21,222 nt of DNA from a virus. Positions 3,001 to 21,222 of the stretch are shown in pieces. The position numbers were made by a program, and so were the translations under genes. The DNA is taken from positions 1 through 21,222 of the IMG/VR virus record IMGVR_UViG_3300013128_001684. The stretch is one strand, 5' to 3'. Each line of letters opens with the position of its first letter. Position 1 is the first letter of the stretch. The notes under the pieces are model-generated. The model did not search any database, was not told the DNA's origin, and worked only from the letters and a program-made list of their open reading frames with translations.

Positions 3001-3522
3001 AGTTCCTGTTACTGCGGTAGCTTCAGCAAAATGAATATCTACGTATATAATATCTACTCTATTGGCCACGGGTGTCGTTAAACTTGGTATTAATGACAGC
3101 GTCTTTGTTTTATCAGAAGTTATAGAATCGTCGCCTAAATCTATTAAGTCACTTGGATATTGCTGAGTATTATAGTATAAATCTCCCGTTAAAAATACAT
3201 AAAATCCTTTTATATACAATACAGCGGGATTTTCTATAGTACTTCCACCTTTTACATAAAAATTATTATTTGATAATCCTATTACTTTAAAAGCATCGTC
3301 TGTGGGTAAAAGTGGAGCTTTTAAACAATACTTTTTATAAGGTACAGCAATATCACCGTATGTATGTTGTATACCTCTTCTAGTTTGATCTAATTGAGAT
3401 ATACTAATACCTCTTATTTCATCATCTGTAAGAGGTTTATTTTTTTGAGAATGAAAATAATAATATCTTTTATTCTCGTCGTATATAATTATATTTGAAT
3501 AGTTCCCTGTTTTTCCACTCAT
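1..3522 (-). CDS. Large tail/baseplate-type virion protein (3' end beyond window)
   Basis: An uninterrupted reading frame of 1174 codons runs from the ATG at 3522 to the window edge, so the C-terminus is missing. The start is supported by an AAAGGA Shine-Dalgarno that overlaps the terL stop 11 bp upstream. Residues about 154-206 contain RVDIIYVDIHFAE followed by SLRDPRFGTETANRLRAVF. This resembles a conserved segment (RxDxVxLDVW...DPALGGPDTATR) that I associate with DUF6519-type baseplate or beta-helix proteins. The middle has many G-x-T-G tetrapeptides (GYTG, GLTG, GFTG, GTTG). Towards the right of the visible part come short repeats rich in N, T, G and V (for example NGDINAHNFIVSDG and GNLSVVNDLAANNTTISNT), as in beta-solenoid fibres. 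Position after terL also fits a structural gene. A tail fibre, spike or baseplate-attached protein is likely; the exact role is inferred. Confidence 0.75.
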   Translation of the reverse strand, partial: MSGKTGNYSNIIIYDENKRYYYFHSQKNKPLTDDEIRGISISQLDQTRRGIQHTYGDIAVPYKKYCLKAPLLPTDDAFKVIGLSNNNFYVKGGSTIENPAVLYIKGFYVFLTGDLYYNTQQYPSDLIDLGDDSITSDKTKTLSLIPSLTTPVANRVDIIYVDIHFAEATAVTGTDPEIYYDSSLRDPRFGTETANRLRAVFDVKVIEGYTGSIDKNIFYSSSFLDPSVVSLQPPTSNHYKVPIAVIYRKAGNSNLSTDQIVDLLTLYDKRVMSLEELTYRTKHGGYSAKDLIDLGTTGLSKELVDAGVSGFTPQYPYANLYEGAYASGVGEGLGTEAFNTNSVTPRVLDNSGKFLMGALQVGEETGSFEYPNTPATGPEQLNKGEIVANQESLNSLYIGYDSGTTGVREYKDALSINTQGLTGPSSSYFVKEDVDGVAALAIQNKGTITGIYSSYISSYDPVTETLNNFSVIDFKGRLGFNTFQPAWDNIPSDWNTDRYSTGVNVVVDINDSQRIRKHFFVDKDAYIGEGLYGKTWSIPSILSDLNKAYLGFTGIPQSFSFNDLGLTGSQAVVVIKPGVATVGVSGLSDYKGYTGVAGFYEAYNSNGERLFTIGDLGEDFDRVVKTLYGTSVDSLWFINKSFTDLLEWGRGIETSDIISYSINFNSNPVPLTVAGYSVTYDGYTGLQSFVASLYTGISTYDSSYCPGDTGTYVYSLNNPYDSSDPSNGSIIIKDPNNAIESIDYILLEDHTTLLPDITIDDDLIVKTHFYGSGSYGGDLLDIKFAKLDLGEAANAWLFNGDVFFNGNGLLNRVTFSPNAIFRDDVFVYGSLFANDMYFVSANLGDLTVSRKLLVSSPAYFEEQVVIGIPAPTAAGRLASELVIDTNLKALINGDINAHNFIVSDGLTTTPKLVLGNTFPNDTTPEEIIYATIGGYLSSTEYPFGIHLIDKSSDVAVTSNEGFRSLVMDFGDGFGNYGKIDVRIRGNLSVVNDLAANNTTISNTLTVSGKTTINNTLEVKELKFIGSGAPSELTGITQPQNALIFKGNEKVVNSKTSGILRLKEFSVDNKYVFFNIMGYAAGSEHLITYCGIVVGSNASWTHDTMSYPYSLFKSENSDTLNADSYNSRTNTDPLFRGRFNRYVVATLGTLKINWVGEYNASPGSIGIERAVQSYI

Positions 3523-3533
3523 TGTATATCCTT

Positions 3534-6500
3534 TTATCGAAAAAAAGTTCTAAAACTTGGCATTAAAGACGGCCTTCTATAATTTCCGCCAGCTAACGTT
3601 CTCATTGAAGGCCTTTTAAGTTCTATTTTTCTTGCCTCTAAACTTCTAACATTTTTATACATTCTAGCTTGTGATGATATAACTCCTACAGAATGCACAC
3701 CTATACCTTTAATTTTATATTCAGTAGCTACTAAAACCATACGTGCTAAAGCATCACTTAAATCGTCGTGACTTCCCTCTGTTTCTGGAGCAGCTACTTT
3801 TATTAAGTATTTAGATTTTTGATATGCTTGTAATGTTAAAAGTTCTTGTACAAGTGGGGTGTCTTTTTCTATTTTTCCGTTTATTTCCACTGGATTACCA
3901 TCAGGTAACCTTATTGTTTGTGATATAAAAGTTGATAATAAATTTTGATACGCTGTTGAATTAGATACCTCTGTAAAAGTTCTAGATTCAAAGCACTTAT
4001 GACCTTTTTTCTCTAATAATGGAACAACACTTAAACCATAGTACTGGTCCATTAGTCCTTTAACTACATAAAATCTATCTAAATATGAAGCTACCCAATC
4101 TGATATTTCATCTGGTACAAAGTAATCTTTACCCTCGTCTCCAGCAAATCTTATATCACAACAGTCTACTTCTATTTTATCTATATCTTGTCCTTCAACT
4201 TTTTCTTTAACCCAATGTCCTATACATACTGATGTTCCGTCATTCTTTAAACCCACATCTATACCCATAAAATGAGGTACTCTTTCAAAAGACCTTACTT
4301 TATATCTTAAACTAGGAACTATATTCTGTCTTACAGTAGTCTCGTCTTCTATCCACGCTGAATGCTTGTCACTAAACTGTGCCCCAAATTCTGATATAAA
4401 CGTTCTTGGATTTTCGCTAAATTTTGATTTTAAATACTCTGTAGAAAGATTAGGGTCCATTTCCCACGTAGGGGCTTGTATCATAAATAGATTTGTTGTT
4501 TCTTGCTTATAAGATCTTTCATATTCTTCATAAAATTTACCATTTCTACCACACGGTGACGAAATGCATATAACTTTTCCGTCTGGTATACCATCTGGTT
4601 TCTTAAACTTAGCAATAGAGGGAGTTACAGCATCATATATAGCTTTATCATTTTTATCGCTACCCGTAGGTTTGCTACCAATTTTTTTATATTCGTCATA
4701 AAAGAAAAAAGCCATTTCGTCTAGGGCTACTATTAAATTATTTCTACCACGAAGACCTTTAGCGCTACATGGGGCTACATCTATAGATACTGTTGCTCTA
4801 CCGTGATCTCCATATTTATCTAGGTCTCTTTGAGACCTTAATTTCATTCTCTGTTTAGTAGGTTTATCTCTATATTTTCTAAAAAACTCACTTCTTTCTA
4901 AATGTCCTGTAACTTTATTAAAAAGTTCTGCGGCAGTATCTTTTCCTGTAGACACACATGTTATTCTAATATCATCTTCGGGCATTATTCCATAATATTC
5001 CTGTGGGCAATATTTATTTAAAAGTCTATAAGTCTCATAAGCTATTATACATGCGGTTATTGTAGTATTATGATTAGTCATTCCATTAGCCACAAAAGAC
5101 TCTCCATCTGGTACGTTTAAATCATAAACCCTTTCTCTACCTTGTGTAACTTCTGTTACAGTATCAAAGAAATATTCAGTATTTTGTATATCCTCAAAAT
5201 GTTTTATAACTTTTATATCTGCATTTAAGTTTTTTGCTACCAAAATAGCCTTATCCAATCTAAAGTAATTAAAATTCTCAGTACAATTAGTTTTTAGTAC
5301 ATTACCTATGGCATCCCTTAGTAGCATTCTTTTAGGTTCTGACTTCTTTTTAGGATATATGCCATCAGATTTACCTTTACATACGGAGTCCCTTAATTTT
5401 CTACACCATTCTTTTTGATAAGGTATTGACTCAGTTTTACTTTTATTCCCCCGAAATCCTTTATTTATATGATTTTCTAATAACGACTTTTTTCTTTCAC
5501 TAATAAAACCTATTTCATTGTGAAATATTTTTAGCGACTTAAATCCTACTATATTTAAATGATAATAAACTTTATTAAATTTTCTATTCAATCTATTTTT
5601 TACTCTACTAACTATTCCAAAATTTAGTAATAATAATTGAAGCTCCTGAGCAAGTTTTAAACTTGCCGTCGAAAAAGAAACAATACTTCGTTTAGATTCA
5701 ACACAGCCATCAGTCTCAAAAAGACCCCTTAAAAAAGAAGCCACAACTGATTTTGGAGATTGCATAATTATCCAAGGTATTCTTTTTGTGTCACTTTTTG
5801 AATCTAAATTAAAACCTATTTTATCAAAAAAAGCTCTCATATCTACAGAACAGTACGATACTTTATACACTTCTTTTCCATTTTTTTTAAGAACGGAGGG
5901 TTTACCTATTGTGTTCGTAAAAATATTTATAACTTGATTTAACCAATCTGGATACGGACCCACTGTAACATCTAGAGAGTTATTTGAAACCCATGTACCG
6001 TCACCTACTAGTATCCCTAAAAGCTCAGACCACTTTTCATCAAAAATATTAGGTGTATTTACACACTTTCTACCTGTTAACTTACCCTTATATTTTTCTA
6101 CAGTTACATAATCTTTAGACCACATATCTGTTTTTCTGTGAATACACAGTATATCTCCTACTTTAATATCCTCTAAATGTCTCCATTTAATAGTACCATC
6201 ATTATCTAAAATTTTAACTCTGTGATTAGGAGTACCATCAATATGAAAACCATAAAAACTTTTCAATTTTACAATATCTCTTTCTCCGCCATTATAAAAA
6301 TAAGCTGATTCTGACCTATTAATACCCTCTTGGGCTACACCTACTTTTAACGGCTGATACTCTTCTCCATCACGATTACCTAATTCTTGTATCTCTATTA
6401 ATCCATTATTAGTATTTACAAATGTTCCTTCAGAAACGCACTTTCCTGCGCGTCTTCCGCACACTAATATCAAATCAGTAAATGTATTACCGTAGTCTCT

Positions 6501-6803
6501 TCTATTAACTCTTCCTTCATTAAATAAATAATTAAGATACTCAACTTCATTAAATCTATAAAGCTCTATTTCGTTAAATCTGTCTTTAATTATAATATCT
6601 CTATTACTACTTTTATCTAGTTCTAACTGATAAAAACACTTAATAATAAACCTCTGCGCCGGATATAAGGGTGGAATCTCTTTAGAAGACCCCAGGCCTA
6701 AACCCCACTCAGCAGTACAAAATTCCAGTATATTCTTATCTAGAATCTTACTGGAATCTTTTTCACTTTTAATAAAATTAGTGCAAAGTTCAGCTATACT
6801 CAT
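3534..6803 (-). CDS. terL: Terminase large subunit (TerL) with in-frame intein
   Basis: This is the ATP-driven DNA packaging motor and headful or site nuclease. The precursor is 1089 aa; removing the intein (residues 122-579) leaves 631 aa, a normal TerL size. The ATPase domain shows Walker A GRRAGK (116-121) rejoined to TT (580-581), Walker B LIVALDEMA (690-698, D695/E696) and the coupling motif VICISSP (744-750). The RNase H-like nuclease domain shows FMGIDVGLKNDGT (D849), LMDQYYG (D919) and SHDDLSDAL (D1013, D1014, D1017), so all acidic metal ligands look present. The ATG at 6803 overlaps the stop of the upstream gene as ATGA, which suggests translational coupling. The product would be inactive until the intein splices, because the P-loop is split. 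Assignment is very secure. Confidence 0.97.
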   Translation of the reverse strand: MSIAELCTNFIKSEKDSSKILDKNILEFCTAEWGLGLGSSKEIPPLYPAQRFIIKCFYQLELDKSSNRDIIIKDRFNEIELYRFNEVEYLNYLFNEGRVNRRDYGNTFTDLILVCGRRAGKCVSEGTFVNTNNGLIEIQELGNRDGEEYQPLKVGVAQEGINRSESAYFYNGGERDIVKLKSFYGFHIDGTPNHRVKILDNDGTIKWRHLEDIKVGDILCIHRKTDMWSKDYVTVEKYKGKLTGRKCVNTPNIFDEKWSELLGILVGDGTWVSNNSLDVTVGPYPDWLNQVINIFTNTIGKPSVLKKNGKEVYKVSYCSVDMRAFFDKIGFNLDSKSDTKRIPWIIMQSPKSVVASFLRGLFETDGCVESKRSIVSFSTASLKLAQELQLLLLNFGIVSRVKNRLNRKFNKVYYHLNIVGFKSLKIFHNEIGFISERKKSLLENHINKGFRGNKSKTESIPYQKEWCRKLRDSVCKGKSDGIYPKKKSEPKRMLLRDAIGNVLKTNCTENFNYFRLDKAILVAKNLNADIKVIKHFEDIQNTEYFFDTVTEVTQGRERVYDLNVPDGESFVANGMTNHNTTITACIIAYETYRLLNKYCPQEYYGIMPEDDIRITCVSTGKDTAAELFNKVTGHLERSEFFRKYRDKPTKQRMKLRSQRDLDKYGDHGRATVSIDVAPCSAKGLRGRNNLIVALDEMAFFFYDEYKKIGSKPTGSDKNDKAIYDAVTPSIAKFKKPDGIPDGKVICISSPCGRNGKFYEEYERSYKQETTNLFMIQAPTWEMDPNLSTEYLKSKFSENPRTFISEFGAQFSDKHSAWIEDETTVRQNIVPSLRYKVRSFERVPHFMGIDVGLKNDGTSVCIGHWVKEKVEGQDIDKIEVDCCDIRFAGDEGKDYFVPDEISDWVASYLDRFYVVKGLMDQYYGLSVVPLLEKKGHKCFESRTFTEVSNSTAYQNLLSTFISQTIRLPDGNPVEINGKIEKDTPLVQELLTLQAYQKSKYLIKVAAPETEGSHDDLSDALARMVLVATEYKIKGIGVHSVGVISSQARMYKNVRSLEARKIELKRPSMRTLAGGNYRRPSLMPSFRTFFR
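5067..6440 (-). mobile_element. Intein with LAGLIDADG homing endonuclease, in the TerL P-loop
   Basis: The 458-residue insertion starts at Cys122 (CVSEGTFV, block A) and ends in HN579, followed by Thr580 as the +1 extein nucleophile. Block B is TPNHRVKIL (191-199). The endonuclease motifs are LLGILVGDGT (261-270) and FLRGLFETDG (357-366), a two-motif dodecapeptide arrangement with an acidic residue in each. The C-terminal blocks are RVYDLNVPDGESFVANG and MTNHN. All residues needed for splicing (Cys1, block B Thr/His, penultimate His, terminal Asn, +1 Thr) are visible, so it should splice. With both endonuclease motifs present it may still be mobile. Inteins often sit in P-loops of essential phage ATPases; that is known, but activity here is inferred. 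Confidence 0.96.
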
Positions 6804-19928: not shown

Positions 19929-20045
19929 TTAAACTTTTAAAAACGAACTACAGTTCCCGAAGGTACTGCAAAGTGGCGCGAACGCCACAGTTTTTTTCGT
20001 ATTTGTATTTTCTTTATTATCTTCTATATCTTTTTCTTTTGCCAT
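19929..20045 (-). CDS. Possible 38-aa small ORF (uncertain)
   Basis: ATG at 20045 opens a 38-codon frame: MAKEKDIEDNKENTNTKK, then TVAFAPLCSTFGNCSSFLKV, ending 23 bp before delta-prime. The first half uses phage-like AT-rich codons. Codons 3-16 lie in the 41-bp repeat found again at 20851-20891. The second half spans two GC-rich hairpins and has different codon use. There is no Shine-Dalgarno and a hairpin (20051-20083) sits just before the start, so translation is doubtful. It may be a decayed gene or a leader peptide. Confidence 0.3.
   Translation of the reverse strand: MAKEKDIEDNKENTNTKKTVAFAPLCSTFGNCSSFLKV
19951..19997. terminator. Tandem GC-rich hairpins; plus-strand terminator-like, UUCG loops on minus
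   Basis: GTGGCG (19973-19978) pairs with CGCCAC (19983-19988). On the plus strand this is followed by AG and T7 (19991-19997), a textbook intrinsic terminator, yet no plus-strand gene precedes it. On the minus strand, the sense of the neighbouring genes, its loop is UUCG. The second hairpin (19951-19957 with 19962-19968, one mismatch) has a C(UUCG)G loop. A third short stem GAAC-TGTA-GTTC followed by GTTTTT overlaps the second one, so the two are mutually exclusive. Terminator, attenuator or mRNA-stability element are all possible. Confidence 0.5.
19997..20037. repeat. 41-bp perfect direct repeat, copy 1
   Basis: The sequence starting TCGTATTTGTATTTTCTTTA is identical over 41 bp to 20851-20891. 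In this copy the minus strand encodes codons 3-16 of the possible small ORF. The two copies are 854 bp apart and bracket the 124-aa gene and a GC-rich island. Flanks differ immediately on both sides. Confidence 0.97.
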
Positions 20046-20370
20046 TTATAGATGTATGTACTTTAAATTTAAGTACTTACATCGCCTATGCCCGCATCGC
20101 TTGTATGCGAGGATCAATCGGCATTTTCTACAAGAAGTATTCAAAGAGCCGCTTGCTTGCTGTTTAGGCTTTTTACCTTCAAGCACATACAAGGGATTTG
20201 TTCTCTTCGAGCAGAAGACCTATATAAGAGGGGTCTCTTTCCTCTATTCTTTTAACAGCGCCAGTTTGTCTCATTTACAGGGGATCACTCGATTGGCTTA
20301 TCTGCAAAGGCAGCACTCTCTGGCTTATCCCCAACCAAACTTAACTTGCTAAAAGGTTTTATATGCCGCT
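20046..20370 (-). ncRNA. GC-rich hairpin-rich island; possible structured RNA or decayed tnpB/omegaRNA element
   Basis: This 325-bp stretch has no convincing gene and is clearly richer in G+C than the surrounding phage genes. Stems visible on the minus strand are GATGTA/TACATC with GTACTT/AAGTAC inside (20051-20083), CGCAT/ATGCG nested in ATGCC/GGCAT (about 20086-20125), AGCC/GGCT, AGACC/GGTCT, and the elaborate stem at 20280-20332. TCGCCTATGC (20082-20091) recurs exactly at 21023-21032 within the tnpB remnant, with CATC, ATGC and GG at similar spacing. Short frames exist (for example 31 codons from 20274), but none has a ribosome site. It could be a relic of an IS200/IS605 right end or an unrelated structured RNA. 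Confidence 0.45.
20280..20332 (-). repeat. Two-fold stem with direct repeats inside
   Basis: GGGGAT (20280-20285) pairs with ATCCCC (20327-20332), and CTGC (20302-20305) pairs with GCAG (20310-20313) around an AAAG loop. The two unpaired arms between these stems carry near-identical direct repeats: CACTC-gat-TGGCTTAT (20286-20301) and CACTC-tc-TGGCTTAT (20314-20328). The result is a symmetric internal loop whose strands have the same sequence. Confidence 0.6.
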
Positions 20371-20377
20371 ACCTCCT
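20371..20377 (-). promoter_or_regulatory. Orphan perfect Shine-Dalgarno AGGAGGT
   Basis: AGGAGGT overlaps the TGA of the 124-aa gene on the minus strand. It is followed by AGCGGCATATAA, so no ATG, GTG or TTG lies within reach. The next ATG is about 97 bp downstream at 20274. It looks like a ribosome site cut off from its gene. Confidence 0.6.
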
Positions 20378-20751
20378 CACTTAGAGTTAAGTTTTTCTAT
20401 ATTAAAATTCCAACGTTCTATAAGCTTTGTAATCCATTCAGAATCAATAGCTTTTAAGACTTCTGCTTTAGCTGAATATAGATCAAATTTTAGTATATAG
20501 TCTGATTTATCTATATAAGATTGAGGTATAATCTTTTTAAGACCTTTTTTGGTTTTAAACTTAATAAGTAATATCTGATTATCTTTTATATCTTTTATAA
20601 AGTCTTCTAAAGAGGACTCTATAACTCTATCACTAAATAAGAAATTTATGTCTTTAATTATAACTAAAGAATTAGTTGAATATATAGAACTAATATAATT
20701 AGAAAACATAGATAATGTTAACTTATCTGGAGAAATTACTGTTATAATCAT
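20377..20751 (-). CDS. Unknown 124-aa protein
   Basis: The family is not recognised. The N-terminus MIITVISPDKLTLSMFSNYI alternates strand- and helix-like segments. SLVIIKDINFLF and NQILLIKFKTKKGLKKIIP look like core beta strands with a lysine patch, and the C-terminal helix contains SEWITKLIERWNFNIEKL. It vaguely recalls the N-terminal part of a delta-like clamp-loader protein (short ATPase-like alpha/beta core, no P-loop), but this is too weak to call. AAGGA is 8 bp before the ATG and codon use matches the phage. It is the most upstream gene of the replication block visible here and lies between the two 41-bp repeats. Confidence 0.75.
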   Translation of the reverse strand: MIITVISPDKLTLSMFSNYISSIYSTNSLVIIKDINFLFSDRVIESSLEDFIKDIKDNQILLIKFKTKKGLKKIIPQSYIDKSDYILKFDLYSAKAEVLKAIDSEWITKLIERWNFNIEKLNSK

Positions 20752-20850: not shown

Positions 20851-20891
20851 TCGTATTTGTATTTTCTTTATTATCTTCTATATCTTTTTCT
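20851..20891. repeat. 41-bp perfect direct repeat, copy 2
   Basis: Identical to 19997-20037. Here the minus-strand frame that encodes the small ORF in copy 1 has no start codon upstream and stops four codons after the repeat, so this copy is non-coding or a broken gene fragment. The base pattern CTTTTTC-tac-GAAAAAG overlaps its right end. Confidence 0.97.
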
Positions 20892-20970
20892 ACGAAAAAG
20901 AAAAGAATATATAATATAAATATTATATAATATAAAATTCCTAATATACTTTTTTAAAACTAATAGGTAT
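20892..20970. other. Extremely AT-rich stretch with a perfect palindrome
   Basis: TATAATAT-AA-ATATTATA (20910-20927) is a perfect inverted repeat within almost pure A/T sequence. This could be an easily melted or cruciform-forming site, or simply the consequence of base composition. No gene is seen. Confidence 0.5.
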
Positions 20971-20982
20971 TAGAGTGAACTA

Positions 20983-21003
20983 CCACTGCCACAAGGGCGG
21001 TGG
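20983..21003 (-). repeat. Right-end/omegaRNA-type hairpin
   Basis: CCACTGCC pairs with GGCGGTGG (8 bp including one G-U when read as RNA) around a 5-base loop. It is flanked on the minus strand by GAAGCC before and TAGTTCAC after. It is the most GC-rich stem in the window and is well preserved although the gene beside it is broken. Confidence 0.75.
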
Positions 21004-21012
21004 CTTCCCAAT

Positions 21013-21168
21013 TCAGCAACCGTCGCCTATGCACAACATCACCCCACATGCAGGGTCCTGCCTGCAGCAACCGAAGGCCTTGGCTAATAAGATAGCTTAA
21101 TCCTTATTGGGATACAGGCGGATTTTGATGGCCTTTTTAGGCGTATTATCTGGGAGTTTTCGTTTCAT
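21013..21168 (-). pseudogene. tnpB: tnpB remnant (RNA-guided nuclease of IS200/IS605), stop-broken and deleted
   Basis: From the ATG at 21168 the frame reads MKRKLPDNTPKKAIKIRLYP, then NKD, a TAA (21097-21099), then AILLAKAFGCCR. This is the conserved TnpB N-terminus (typically K-x-R-x-YP-[NT]-K-EQ...LL-x-[KR]-x-FG-CCR-[FY]). The TAA stands where Gln (CAA) is usual, a single C-to-T change. After FGCCR the frame continues QDPACGVMLCIGDGC and stops at 21013, replacing about 350 or more residues of the nuclease, so the RuvC domain is absent. No nuclease can be made. What remains could still produce an RNA containing the right-end hairpin. Confidence 0.8.
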
Positions 21169-21222
21169 TTATATTATATATAAGAATATTAGTAGAGTAT
21201 TTCTGACTCGATTCATCCGCCA
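21169..21222. other. AT-rich flank of the tnpB remnant, window edge
   Basis: The minus strand is AT-rich just before the tnpB ATG, with GGCGGATGAATCGAGTC at the edge. A left-end palindrome of the element would be expected here or just outside, but none can be defined. Confidence 0.3.

Follow-up and report, generated by a model that had tools for sequence, protein, structure and literature searches.

Common bacterial transposons of the IS200/IS605 family encode TnpB, the protein from which Cas12 descends. Its guide RNA stops precisely where the transposon does, at the right end (RE). IS605 elements that have lost their core, known as PATEs, arise by repeat-mediated deletion in Haloquadratum walsbyi (PMC3119063), and a PATE-like element has been published in Halanaerobium hydrogeniformans (PMC7290912). 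The element described here is, like the PATEs, a transposase-free remnant of IS605 type with near-terminal palindromes and a deleted core, for which no target duplication is expected. Unlike them, it is located in a phage, has 36 codons of tnpB on its left side, was seen in a single copy and shows only half of its left palindrome.

Other described systems resemble it in part. MITEs of the IS200/IS605_NA type occur in viruses of eukaryotes, where ascoviruses and baculoviruses harbour their tnpB-only partners (PMC6004678); these are also non-autonomous derivatives of tnpB-only IS200/IS605 transposons in viral genomes, but they belong to eukaryotic viruses and are defined by terminal inverted repeats, while our element has subterminal hairpins. 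The plasmid pBM20 of Bacillus methanolicus (L043) likewise contains a tnpB with a deleted core and an intact RE, although its deletion is smaller (positions 124–314 of the TnpB HMM are missing) and tnpA is annotated adjoining it. Phage TldR is a TnpB-derived guide RNA system of phages (PMC13418256), but it keeps the full protein, which our element has lost; the likeness is one of resemblance only and our element is not a member of that group. In the open-access literature, no survey of IS200/IS605-derived MITEs or PATEs in phages was found, which is weak evidence of novelty, because subscription papers are outside its scope. The kind of element is already known, and its setting, a phage, has been little surveyed.

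Architecture of the element

The window, that is, the whole stretch of DNA analysed, is a single contig of 21,222 nucleotides (positions 1–21,222 of the IMG/VR fragment IMGVR_UViG_3300013128_001684) and is AT-rich and of large-phage type. The element is about 250 nt long, too short for a transposase; the RE and a probable half of the left end (LE) are present and tnpB is gone after codon 36. On the minus strand, the LE half is followed by an AT-rich spacer, the tnpB stub, a 3′ segment and the RE:

21207–21222, minus strand: probable 3′ half of the LE hairpin with its foot, TGGCGG-ATGAATCGAG, truncated where the contig ends (8-mer GGATGAAT)
21169–21206, minus strand: AT-rich spacer from the LE foot to the tnpB start (spacing as in intact elements)
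21061–21168, minus strand: 5′ stub of tnpB, 36 codons (PF12323, E-value 1.8e-8; positions 4–30 of the TnpB HMM)
21008–21060, minus strand: 3′ segment, possibly a degenerate remnant of the tnpB 3′ end or omegaRNA scaffold (motif skeleton; covariance model 10.3 bits, E-value 0.53; no HMM match)
20975–21007, minus strand: RE, GAAGCC-hairpin-GTAGTTCAC (same RE after intact tnpB; found in 0 of 100 shuffles)
20955–20974, minus strand: flank outside the RE, the place where a guide would be expected from known TnpB omegaRNAs (PMC10278001), TCTAATACCTATTAGTTTTA

The insert (minus strand, 21168–20975) has a GC content of 49.7%, versus 29% for the whole window, and stretches of 195 nt elsewhere in the window reach 45% at most. 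Its composition is foreign to the phage; an earlier first-pass annotation had said so of its codons. The stub reads MKRKLPDNTPKKAIKIRLYPNKD, a stop codon and AILLAKAFGCCR (21168–21061). Its similarity to TnpB is evident from the match to the Pfam family HTH_OrfB_IS605 (PF12323), which covers only profile positions 3–28 of 47, the amino-terminal helix-turn-helix. When its residues are used in tblastn, the starts of TnpB proteins of phages and plasmids are recovered with identities of up to about 65%; among the loci fetched, the closest match is the intact TnpB of the gut-phage scaffold L047. The in-frame TAA (21097–21099) is located where relatives carry glutamine, in the context KDQ or KEQ, as had been proposed. 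After the stub, the same frame continues into QDPACGVMLCIGDGC and a stop codon, and the RE begins a few nucleotides beyond that stop. The annotated jump from the TnpB start straight to a 3′ region ending in GAAGCC-hairpin-GTAGTTCAC is thus present, with a gap of 53 nt and the RE at 21007–20975.

The RE itself reads GAAGCCACCGCCCTTGTGGCAGTGGTAGTTCAC (21007–20975). A single match to the pattern GAAGCCN{8,36}GTAGTTCAC is present in the window, and 100 dinucleotide shuffles contain none. In TnpB systems, the omegaRNA scaffold has its 3′ end at the RE (PMC10278001). GAAGCC-hairpin-GTAGTTCA follows intact tnpB in Bacillus phage BSP12 (after 76 nt) and in Finegoldia (after 119 nt), and most intact tnpB elements in our scan of viral contigs have their RE 70–130 nt past the gene. 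Many matches to the pattern in the viral contigs have poor stems; these were counted as chance and left out. Since the same RE sits directly after intact tnpB elsewhere, the 3′ end of the element in the window is of TnpB type. The hairpin had been described as intact. The subterminal hairpin with its TTCAC-type end is present, but its stem is imperfect, with one C·A mismatch and a DNA folding energy of −6.1 kcal/mol (z −1.96); the mismatch would be expected of a relic in decay no less than of an element that is mobile. The earlier view that the hairpin is better preserved than the gene comes from a single copy. Because the stub matches TnpB, the RE is unique in the window and the GC content is an outlier, the internally deleted tnpB element first noticed from the sequence alone is real.

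The LE had been missed. The final 16 nt of the contig, TGGCGGATGAATCGAG on the minus strand, are, judging from their sequence, probably one half of the LE hairpin, the 3′ one, with the remainder beyond the contig edge. The LE hairpin has a constant build among the elements of the scanned contigs (for example CACGCTGAGAAAACCCAATGATCTTTAGCCATTGGGATGAATCAGC in L167), and GGATGAAT is the 3′ foot that closes it in at least seven of them (L089, L108, L144, L156, L167, L169 and L177). In the window, GGATGAAT occurs once, at the contig end and on the strand expected for an LE, with 77 nt from the foot to the first matched TnpB residue; in intact elements, this distance is about 48–239 nt. Shuffling gives 0.84 expected occurrences per window, and therefore, by our estimate, about 0.002 for the right position and strand. 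The contig stops before the 5′ part of the LE, and the left boundary and the target site lie off it; insertions of tnpB-bearing IS200/IS605 elements are characteristically 3′ of a tetra- or pentanucleotide, with no target duplication. The earlier statement that only the two ends survive had been made without locating the LE, of which only the probable 3′ half is on the contig.

On one side, the element neighbours a 124-residue open reading frame and a delta-prime clamp-loader gene, and is located upstream of both; on the other side is the contig edge. The assignment to a replication locus therefore holds for one flank, where the clamp-loader gene is, while the other flank is beyond the contig. 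No empty site was found, because searches with the clamp-loader protein returned no relatives of the locus. There is no second copy of the element within the 21 kb fragment, which is part of a phage genome. An AT-rich inverted repeat of 15 nt flanking the insert (20907–20921 and 21167–21181) was dismissed as low-complexity sequence.

Other features of the window were also recorded. An exact direct repeat of 41 nt (19997–20037 and 20851–20891) surrounds the 124-residue open reading frame and a GC-richer non-coding block. A second GC-rich block (about 43%, 19940–20400) has no Pfam or Rfam match and adjoins two hairpins with UUCG loops, GTGGCG-TTCG-CGCCAC and CAGTACCTTCGGGAACTG; it is possible that this block is a structured RNA of a new type or another decayed element. 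The gene for the large terminase subunit (3534–6803) is split by an intein with a LAGLIDADG domain.

Parallel mini-elements and the search for a parent

Two further elements composed of LE, tnpB stub and RE were found in the viral contigs. In L153, located in a contig of 105 kb, positions 4–49 of the TnpB HMM are directly followed by the RE. In L167, located in a contig of 290 kb (G521), positions 3–26 are followed by the RE and the LE hairpin is complete. In addition, at least nine LE-RE elements are devoid of tnpB, with the two ends about 150–280 nt apart (L105, two in L106, L109, L114, L116, L126, L135 and L206). The LE hairpins are imperfect in L116 and L153. An omegaRNA-like core is recognisable in the tnpB-less phage mini-elements L105, L116 and L145. 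The final 90–98 nt of L106b, L109a and L198, from three different viral contigs, are 90–97% identical and form a dispersed mini-element family.

The contig G521 contains both L167 (30623–30974) and an intact element, L214 (265714–267104), which encodes a TnpB of 402 residues. The two have both ends in common: their 3′ 116 nt are 99% identical and their 5′ stretches 86–90%, while the flanks differ. At the deletion junction of L167, about 7 nt of sequence are shared. This pair resembles the element in the window in its LE hairpin, its approximately 26 matched tnpB positions and its GAAGCC-hairpin-GTAGTTCAC RE, and differs from it in that the parent is known in the same genome, the LE is complete and the TnpB is of a different lineage. 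Because L167 and its intact parent share their ends within G521, an architecture like that of the window can be seen to arise when a tnpB element is deleted internally. L167 also contains an internal inverted repeat of 31 nt with about 90% identity.

Several other loci deserve mention in their own right. Between the LE hairpin and the RE of the tnpB-less mini-element L206 (2055–2164, IMGVR_UViG_3300034521_000267), two identical CRISPR-like repeats of 37 nt (ATTCAAAAGCAAGATCCACTAAAACAAGGATTGAAAC) are separated by a spacer of 36 nt. In the Finegoldia magna plasmid L042, omegaRNA and RE are present twice in tandem (3149–3274 and 3346–3472) after a single tnpB, and the second copy, which has a flank of its own, resembles a guide-only element. 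A Bacillota genome (G044) contains many short, exclusively carboxy-terminal TnpB matches (query residues around 300–371) at separate places, which suggests a family of deletion derivatives.

Viral contigs, phages, plasmids and GTDB genomes yielded no parent with the same sequence as the element in the window, and a blastn search of phages and plasmids with the element gave no match. RE patterns with a CCAC/GTGG stem were absent from the viral contigs and from all 198 Desulfobacterota genomes; one of 300 Bacillota genomes contained one (L037), which was rejected as a parent, no TnpB adjoining the match. A related phage of 210 kb (G003) was rejected as well: its intact TnpB is of another type, the right end differs and there is no similarity at the DNA level. 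The same ends around an intact tnpB are therefore known for the parallel element L167, but no such genome was found for the copy in the window.

The omegaRNA scaffold

The first-pass annotation had suggested that a guide-like RNA could be retained. A covariance model was built from nine related omegaRNAs, with the window excluded. On the window it gives 10.3 bits with an E-value of 0.53, which is noise level, and the score is carried by the RE; the same model finds omegaRNAs outside its build with E-values of 4.7e-8 to 2.6e-3 (among them L012, 4.7e-8; L058, 7.9e-6; L008, 2.2e-4; and L043, 4e-4). Neither an HMM of related omegaRNAs, searched against the window, nor Rfam, searched with the element, gave a match. 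The skeleton TGTGG[AG]G...TGAAN4GAAGCC is present, as TGTGGGG..., and occurs in 16 of 100,000 shuffles, a frequency that applies to a motif picked post hoc. RNA folding of the element is ordinary when compared with shuffles (z −0.38). A guide role is unsupported here, because the scaffold is at noise level, the stub contains a stop codon, and the fragment contains neither TnpA nor a second copy. With a scaffold that is not significant and an ordinary RNA fold, the copy in the window is most readily interpreted as a derivative that has decayed or lost its function.

Origin, mobility and implications

We consider the element to be a non-autonomous, internally deleted PATE-like IS200/IS605 element, an identification to which we assign a probability of roughly 0.8 and which has parallels, including the element beside its intact TnpB parent in G521. 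It is filed as PATE-like and not as a proven mobile PATE, with one copy in a fragment of 21 kb. A tnpB transposon from a source of around 50% GC would have lost its core by internal deletion, so that what remained was the LE hairpin, the first 36 codons of tnpB, some 50 nt from the 3′ region and an RE hairpin ending in TTCAC; the resulting element would now reside in the AT-rich genome of a large phage. It may have moved by single-stranded transposition in trans, using TnpA from the host or from a different element; alternatively, a full-length element may have inserted first and undergone the deletion later. As a candidate mechanism, transposition in trans is plausible, and the proposal that this is a MITE-like derivative of the kind moved in trans is upheld by an RE of the type found at intact tnpB, the probable LE half and the G521 parallel with its parent. 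The window, its relatives, G520 and G521 were all negative for TnpA; the one contig among those searched that has it is G513, which contains L106 and has three TnpA matches, four TnpB genes and two mini-elements. Movement of the element in the window would need TnpA in trans.

Within the PATE-like reading, we give somewhat less than even odds to an immobile relic, that is, a full element that, once inserted, underwent deletion and point mutation where it stood, without ever moving as a mini-element. The in-frame TAA, the mismatch in the RE stem, the single copy and the lack of TnpA in the fragment all fit such a history, but the hairpins needed for mobilisation in trans are largely kept, and mini-elements of related build are dispersed among contigs, as in the L106b, L109a and L198 family. 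A chimera, in which assembly fused bacterial DNA to the terminus of a phage contig, is very improbable. The GC-rich insert is indeed less than 250 nt from the edge of an IMG/VR fragment and no close relative spans the junction; however, it is bounded on the right exactly by the RE, after which AT-rich, phage-like DNA resumes, and elements of the same LE-stub-RE build are located inside the viral contigs of 105 and 290 kb that contain L153 and L167.

We regard it as equally improbable that the mini-element yields a working omegaRNA for a TnpB provided in trans by the host or by the same or a co-infecting phage, for which retention of the transposon, regulation or interference have been proposed as uses. 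The geometry of RE and flank is that of an omegaRNA 3′ end (PMC10278001), three elements without tnpB (L105, L116 and L145) keep a recognisable omegaRNA core, and the 3′ end of L167 matches that of L214, the intact TnpB element in the same genome, at 99% identity. Against this, in the window the scaffold does not rise above noise and has no HMM match, the RNA fold is no better than that of shuffles, and intact TnpB is absent from the fragment. A broader version, in which phage mini-elements are a guide-only class that borrows TnpB from the same phage (as in G521) or the host, with the window containing a decayed member, is unlikely, though less so. If true, the RE, and in several cases the omegaRNA, would be kept for the elements' own retention or for targeting competitors.

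Our survey shows that elements of the PATE-like kind, which keep the RE and lose the gene, recur across viral contigs. They raise the question of whether guides can work without a nuclease of their own. The copy in the window is too degenerate to answer it, and the pair of L167 and L214 in G521 is the better natural test system.
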